Virus record (IMG/VR): IMGVR_UViG_3300025012_000123
Location: 1-51,480 of that record
Strand: one strand, 5' to 3'
Origin: a virus
DNA length: 51,480 nt
A model generated the notes under the pieces. That model had not been told where the DNA came from, ran no database searches, and saw nothing but the letters and a program-made list of their open reading frames with translations. Positions 29,342 through 29,473 of the stretch are shown here, one piece after another. Each line of letters starts with the position of its first letter. The stretch's first letter is position 1. The translations under genes and the position numbers were made by a program.

Positions 29342-29473
29342 GTAACGGGAACAGACGCAAACGGAAATTTTAGCGCTCTACCAACTGAGCTATCCGCCAT
29401 TTCTGACGGAGACGGACTTGAACCGCCGACCTCTTCATTAGAAGTGAAGTAACCGTTCGCTACGCCACGCTAC
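29342..29473 (-). ncRNA. Y RNA 1 (YrlA-type) with a complete permuted tRNA-Arg(UCU)-like domain
   Basis: Scaffold: outer stem GTAGCG/CGTTAC, TGGCGTA, stem GCGAACGG/CCGTTTGC, opposite loop TGTTCC. Insert: tRNA positions 26-73 come first (29,450-29,403; anticodon arm CTTCA-CTTCTAA-TGAAG, T arm GGCGG-TTCAAGT-CCGTC, acceptor TCCGTCA), then GAAA, then positions 1-25 (29,399-29,375; acceptor TGGCGGA, D arm GCTC-AGTTGGTA-GAGC). Reassembled, all four stems pair and U8, G18G19, U33 and T54T55C56 are present. The acceptor is capped by a GNRA tetraloop, so it is a tRNA mimic rather than a tRNA. Confidence 0.85.

Follow-up and report, generated by a model that had tools for sequence, protein, structure and literature searches.

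The Ro60 Locus and Its Three Y RNAs

The window, i.e., the whole stretch of DNA that was analysed, is a virus record of 51,480 bases in which family searches recognised a P22-like portal and phage replication genes. Its minus strand encodes, at positions 27,758–29,101, a Ro60/Rsr-like TROVE protein of 447 amino acids (PF05731 with an E-value of 7 × 10−16, vWA_Ro60, and phrog_850). Upstream of this gene, on the minus strand, fold and sequence indicated three Y RNAs of a common build. In each, an outer stem leads into an internal loop that carries TGGCG.. and TGTTCC boxes; next come a stem of some 8 bp, a box resembling TTACTTC and a variable insert. Judged by its fold, Y RNA 1 would occupy positions 29,343–29,472, the ends of the whole RNA being set by the outer stem 29,472–29,468/29,347–29,343. 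Y RNA 2 (29,204–29,334, ends approximate) contains a T arm, a GTGA-capped acceptor and a D arm that is shortened; where a canonical anticodon arm would stand, it has a hairpin whose loop measures 6 nt. Y RNA 3 (29,122–29,194, ends approximate) is minimal and carries no tRNA-like domain. No sigma-70 promoters were found in a scan of positions 28,900–29,800.

An earlier note on this DNA had named the first of these RNAs a Y RNA. This identity was borne out by the Ro60/TROVE gene, which lies about 240 nt downstream of Y RNA 1 on the shared minus strand, and by a match to the YrlA model RF02553. The match (34.8 bits at 29,355–29,459) does not reach the curated gathering cut-off of 69, and 7 of 14 control genomes also give weak matches to the model. 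When the gathering cut-off was applied to 20 relative loci, no RF02553 match was obtained.

Y RNA 1 Contains a Permuted tRNA

All elements described below lie on the minus strand. The two sides of the internal loop carry the TGGCGTA box (5′ side, 29,461–29,467) and the TGTTCCC box (3′ side, 29,347–29,353), both common to the relatives and together a putative Ro site. The 5′ strand of the 8-bp stem (29,453–29,460) pairs with 29,364–29,357 at a mean pair probability of 0.99. It is followed by the TTACTTC box (29,446–29,452), for which GATACTTC is a recurring variant, and the final nucleotides of the box are the 5′ strand of the anticodon stem. From here the insert runs in the order anticodon arm, variable loop, T arm, 3′ strand of the acceptor, GAAA, 5′ strand of the acceptor and D arm.

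The anticodon arm CTTCA-CTTCTAA-TGAAG (29,433–29,449), recognised by sequence and by comparison, has the stem CTTCA/TGAAG and the loop CTTCTAA with U33, A37 and the anticodon UCU at 29,442–29,440. The variable loop AGGTC (AGGUC in the RNA) separates it from the T arm GGCGG-TTCAAGT-CCGTC (29,411–29,427), which is evident in the sequence and has a pair probability of 0.99. The acceptor (29,393–29,410; pair probability 0.97) is a stem of 7 bp including one G-U pair, 29,410–29,404/29,399–29,393, capped by a GAAA tetraloop at 29,403–29,400, and is supported by covariation in the family. The D arm GCTC-AGTTGGTA-GAGC (29,375–29,390; pair probability 0.96) has the stem GCTC/GAGC. Joining 29,399–29,375 to 29,450–29,403 yields 73 nt with all tRNA elements, so that the tRNA domain of Y RNA 1 is a circular permutation opened at tRNA positions 26/27. 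The earlier note had given the coordinates of this join and the elements of the resulting tRNA, and on re-reading the sequence they proved right to the base. Judged by its sequence and by comparison, Y RNA 1 is a Ro60-associated phage Y RNA, the distal domain of which is a complete permuted tRNA mimic.

Related RNAs in Phages and Bacteria

To find relatives, we used a motif pattern of the two boxes and the T loop, in which 10–40 nt in between were left free. It matched 78 stretches of viral contigs, and a further 68 stretches were matched in bacterial genomes, many of them labelled as Acidobacteria, Planctomycetes or Alphaproteobacteria. Of 300 genomes sampled from the family to which one Granulicella genome (L138, G001) belongs, 28 carried a match, and none did in the backwards control. 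The viral, bacterial and Granulicella-family matches led us to reject the idea of a single-genome oddity. Allowing the motif variant GTTWCTYC in the scan gave no new units. Parsing resulted in 169 distinct units, 87 from viruses and 82 from genomes; the conservation of the TTACTTC box and the T loop among them is by construction, since the motif scans fixed both. A Ro60 homologue was present on the available flanking DNA of 70 of 75 viral and 58 of 67 genomic loci. The structure is not absent from close relatives, which the earlier note would have counted against its reading: the nearest relative found by Ro (L002, Ro 56% identical) keeps the permuted form with a different loop, CTATGGA.

The suggestion, also made in the earlier note, that the RNA derives recently from a tRNA was not supported. 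Its equivalents are spread over many phages and bacterial genomes and carry a wide range of anticodons, which indicates that the permuted form is old, even if parts of the permuted Y RNAs may still be repeated captures from tRNAs. Ordinary tRNA gene arrays were seen beside Y RNAs on a Granulicella contig (L139, 1219–4890) and on an alphaproteobacterial contig (L132, 76–1037), and are a possible source of captured arms.

The spacer of the units is sharply peaked, with 20–22 nt in 121 of the 169. An anticodon arm (at least 4 pairs, including both inner ones) was recognised in 101 of these 121 units, as compared to 17.4 with shuffled spacers, and an arm with both U33 and a purine at 37 in 91, as compared to 2.4; the variable-loop length (4 or 5) was picked for best pairing in the real and in the shuffled spacers alike. 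Many Y RNAs, on the other hand, lack the anticodon arm, sometimes within arrays that also carry arms, and therefore the Ro function does not need it.

Two further observations were made in relatives. In the Microbacterium phage Pumpernickel (L223, about 1500–1580), an RNA with different boxes also shows an arm, CCG-CTGCTAA-CGG, before its T and D arms, so the anticodon arm may extend to actinophage Y RNAs. Brevundimonas jumbo phages (L007, 6791–7046; L008, 6345–6690) carry matches to the permuted tmRNA model (RF04321, above cut-off) near the Ro/Y RNA locus.

Folding and tRNA Prediction

The unconstrained fold of the 136-nt Y RNA 1 contained the outer stem, the 8-bp stem, the T arm, the GAAA-capped acceptor and the D arm, and its stability (z = −2.91) was reached by 0 of 200 shuffles. 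The anticodon hairpin had a pair probability of only 0.04, as against 0.96–0.99 for the T, acceptor and D arms. When the arm of Y RNA 1 was folded on its own, the anticodon hairpin (−2.7 kcal/mol) lost out to a shifted hairpin of 6 bp that draws on the variable loop (−4.3 kcal/mol). Likewise, ViennaRNA favoured the canonical inner pairs in 40 of 115 isolated Y arms versus 189 of 202 ordinary tRNA arms from the same loci. This predicted weakness of the isolated stem weighs most heavily against a fully formed anticodon arm, and the case for the arm is for this reason comparative, where it is strong, and not one of folding energy.

ARAGORN recognised the rejoined Y RNA 1 as a tRNA-Arg(tct) of 73 nt, but called no tRNA in the window in its native order. 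The Rfam tRNA model scored 28.9 bits at 29,403–29,467, just below its cut-off of 29. With these two results, a conventional tRNA gene forming a cloverleaf in normal order was rejected. The call on the rejoined sequence was not accepted as proof of the anticodon arm: among rejoined units, ARAGORN called 85 of 90 with an arm, but also 28 of 49 arm-less ones and 419 of 695 controls in which positions 27–48 had been shuffled, which makes it a weak judge of this feature.

ARAGORN also called 30 of the 169 Y units in place as tRNAs, so that misannotation is probably common. Indeed, deposited tRNA annotations (Gln, Ser, Thr) overlie Y RNAs read in normal order in CcrColossus (L011, 2131–2198), Gurke and Kikimora (L008, 2769–2843, and L228, 1069–1143) and 10KY502B (L219, 1969–2036). 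Genome annotation thus mistakes such Y RNAs for tRNAs.

Covariation and Acceptor Linkers

Covariation was assessed in the 107 of 169 units that had at least 3 arm pairs, a 20–22 nt spacer, at least 5 acceptor pairs and a D arm. Acceptor pairs 1–7 were kept in 81–98% of the rows, with many double changes. The inner anticodon pairs 29:41, 30:40 and 31:39 covaried, with 24, 35 and 49 double-change cells, respectively, and the outer pairs 27:43 and 28:42 had no double-change cells in the same 107 rows.

An acceptor and a D arm could be parsed in 139 units, and among these the linker measured 4 nt in 47 and 2–4 nt in 72, the commonest short linkers being GAAA and GCAA. N-CCA directly after position 72 was found in 9 of the 139, as well as in CcrColossus, where the linker is a hairpin. 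These relics suggest an origin by tandem tRNA gene duplication. Together with the permuted order, they would also fit a permuted tRNA gene, whose transcript would be cut at the linker and ligated at 26/27 to give a working tRNA. We regard this as very unlikely for Y RNA 1, as neither its GAAA linker nor the 2–4 nt of the 72 units leaves room for CCA or end processing, anticodons unusual for bacteria occur, and the 26/27 ends are the Ro stem and boxes that are also present in Y RNAs without a tRNA part. That the structure is a chance product, or a decayed and functionless remnant of a tandem tRNA duplication, an ancestry to which the CCA relics would point, is hardly credible given the covarying stems, the conserved boxes, the linkage to Ro60 and the excess of complete arms over the shuffled expectation. 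Chance in particular was rejected on the arm counts against shuffles, the covariation and the fold stability of Y RNA 1.

At L103 (1905 and 2689, minus strand), two permuted units encode ACCA, their linkers measure 16 and 32 nt, and the available flanking DNA carries no Ro homologue. If any of the units are genuine permuted tRNA genes or duplications of recent date, these two are the strongest candidates.

The Anticodon Changes within a Conserved Frame

Entropy and pair tests were carried out on the arms of 115 of 219 units. Position 33 had an entropy of 0.42 bits, U33 being kept in 107 of the 115 arms, and positions 34, 35 and 36 had 1.86, 1.92 and 1.66 bits, respectively. Positions 36 and 37 were coupled as in real tRNAs (mutual information 0.499 versus a null of 0.062; 0 of 2000 shuffles). 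The 97 U33 arms displayed 35 different anticodons and no stop anticodon. Bacteria hardly use A34 anticodons other than ACG for decoding, and the presence of such anticodons in 7 of the 97 arms therefore argues against decoding. An apparent excess of GUN anticodons (Asn, Asp, Tyr, His) was seen, which made up 26 of the 97, 19 of 51 in genomes versus 7 of 46 in viruses. Exact matches of Y loops to ordinary tRNA loops numbered 56 of 115, as compared to 44.4 (maximum 56) after triplet shuffling; this test was set aside, as its reference set was small and included some Y RNAs.

In 19 disjoint close pairs of units, the triplets differed in 17. Sites differed in 58% of cases in the triplet, in 20% in the arm stems and in 0% at U33; the stems, and not the scaffold (14%), are the fair comparison, since the pairs were chosen by scaffold similarity. 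All 25 strand-loci with at least two arms carried different anticodons, some of these loci being duplicates. Two pairs of isolated sister phages illustrate the switch. Between CcrColossus and CcrPW, the 5′ part of a Y RNA is identical except for CT→TA at 34–35 (CUG→UAG), and their GUU arm is unchanged. Between the Xanthomonas phages Olaya and 10KY502B, GT has become TG at these positions (GUU→UGU), with further changes in the acceptor. Taken alone, the two switches are modest evidence (Fisher p = 0.016 and 0.032), and a change of two neighbouring bases may reflect a single event. The one arm (GUG) of five Brevundimonas phages is unchanged.

The main rival to the decoy reading set out below treats the arm as a passenger. 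The RNA would then be a docking module as in YrlA, with the elbow and acceptor bringing Ro60 to PNPase or to TruB/DusA, and the arm would be an inherited spacer that stays tRNA-like through repeated copying from tRNA genes while its triplet drifts. YrlA is reported to resemble the D, T and acceptor arms of tRNA, to be modified by DusA and TruB, and to bind PNPase, thereby tethering Rsr to it (PMC8394870). Such a role would also fit the lack of a pairing constraint on the lower stem of the arm, as well as the commonness of arm-less units (48 of 169 fall outside the 20–22 nt class), also in the same arrays. A drifting spacer, however, should not keep U33 and the 36–37 coupling while the triplet turns over, nor does drift readily explain a change limited to 34–35 in a long identical stretch, as between CcrColossus and CcrPW. 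We consider the docking module a real possibility, though less likely than the decoy reading.

A Proposed Ro-Bound Decoy for Anticodon-Reading Enzymes

The terminal stem and boxes of Y RNA 1 would be its Ro60-binding part. This stem emerges between tRNA positions 26 and 27, which would leave the anticodon loop displayed on a separate arm. Charging is not plausible, because acceptor positions 1–72 are joined by GAAA and there is no free CCA end; the sealed acceptor would make the RNA useless for translation. It is nevertheless plausible that tRNA enzymes bind it. The D/T elbow and the anticodon loop could make it resemble a particular tRNA to enzymes that read the anticodon arm, and when bound to Ro60 it may serve as a decoy or bait for them. 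A frame that keeps U33 and the 36–37 rule while the triplet turns over suggests a recogniser that reads the anticodon and imposes change, so that the related RNAs would be under pressure to swap the triplet. We judge most likely, at an even chance or slightly less, the reading that Y RNA 1 is an unchargeable, Ro-bound tRNA decoy or bait for anticodon-reading enzymes, with host anticodon nucleases as the most plausible, putative target. The wider proposal, that phage and some bacterial Ro60 RNPs carry sealed, unchargeable permuted tRNAs whose displayed anticodon is under diversifying selection and which act as decoys or baits against anticodon nucleases or other anticodon-reading enzymes, is put forward tentatively. 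Bacterial genomes have the same RNAs, so a phage counter-defence cannot be the only role.

A variant in which the RNA is a sensor rather than a sponge appears unlikely. Here an anticodon nuclease would cut the displayed loop, and the cut would act as a damage signal or be resealed by an RNA ligase. The Salmonella rsr-yrl-rtcBA operon is reported to be turned on by cleaved tRNAs (PMC7790460), and the permuted form would stay joined by the Ro stem after a cut, but family searches with 22 of the window's proteins revealed no ligase. With respect to the decoy, a changeable anticodon on a non-translating RNA suggests that an anticodon-reading enzyme recognises it, and offers direct tests.

Comparison with Known Systems

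Several elements of this interpretation have precedents. A role of Salmonella YrlA as a competitive inhibitor of an anticodon nuclease has been suggested (PMC7790460), and evasion of anticodon nucleases has been proposed for phage tRNAs (PMC10264068). In the latter, as in Y RNA 1, the anticodon loop would be the changing part in a phage–host conflict; these phage tRNAs are working tRNAs, however, while Y RNA 1 is probably unchargeable. Permuted tRNA genes, with the 3′ half encoded before the 5′ half, are found in algae and archaea. Y RNA 1 shares this order but differs in its 4-nt linker without CCA and in its ends, which form a Ro stem at 26/27 and no splice site.

TROVE proteins have been noted in jumbo phages (PMC7824862), and a candidate Rsr/Y RNA locus has been described in Listeria phage CKA15 (PMC12282133). 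Mycobacteriophage Y RNAs and, by that description, those of CKA15 are likewise phage-encoded and adjoin a gene for Rsr or an RNA-binding protein. By direct reading, the RNA of the mycobacteriophage Snenia has D, T and acceptor arms but, unlike Y RNA 1, no anticodon arm. To our knowledge, no anticodon arm is described in Chen 2014, Wang 2018, Sim 2018 or Sim 2020. The largely open-access literature that was searched held no description of such an arm in a Y RNA. The mimic is more complete than the Y RNAs in the published descriptions consulted, in agreement with the earlier note.

The closest known system is YrlA (RF02553; PDB 6CU1), which shares with Y RNA 1 the linkage to Ro60, the paired ends and a permuted tRNA-like domain composed of a D arm, a T arm and a capped acceptor arm (PMC8394870, PMC11472068); bacterial Y RNAs in general have been described as circular permutations of tRNA (PMC11472068). 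To this plan, Y RNA 1 adds an anticodon arm of its own, ending in a true anticodon loop; the YrlA consensus has no such arm. As far as sequence comparison goes, Y RNA 1 is a Y RNA of the YrlA sort, below the curated Rfam cut-off, and represents a new form in which a complete anticodon loop is on display and changes rapidly.
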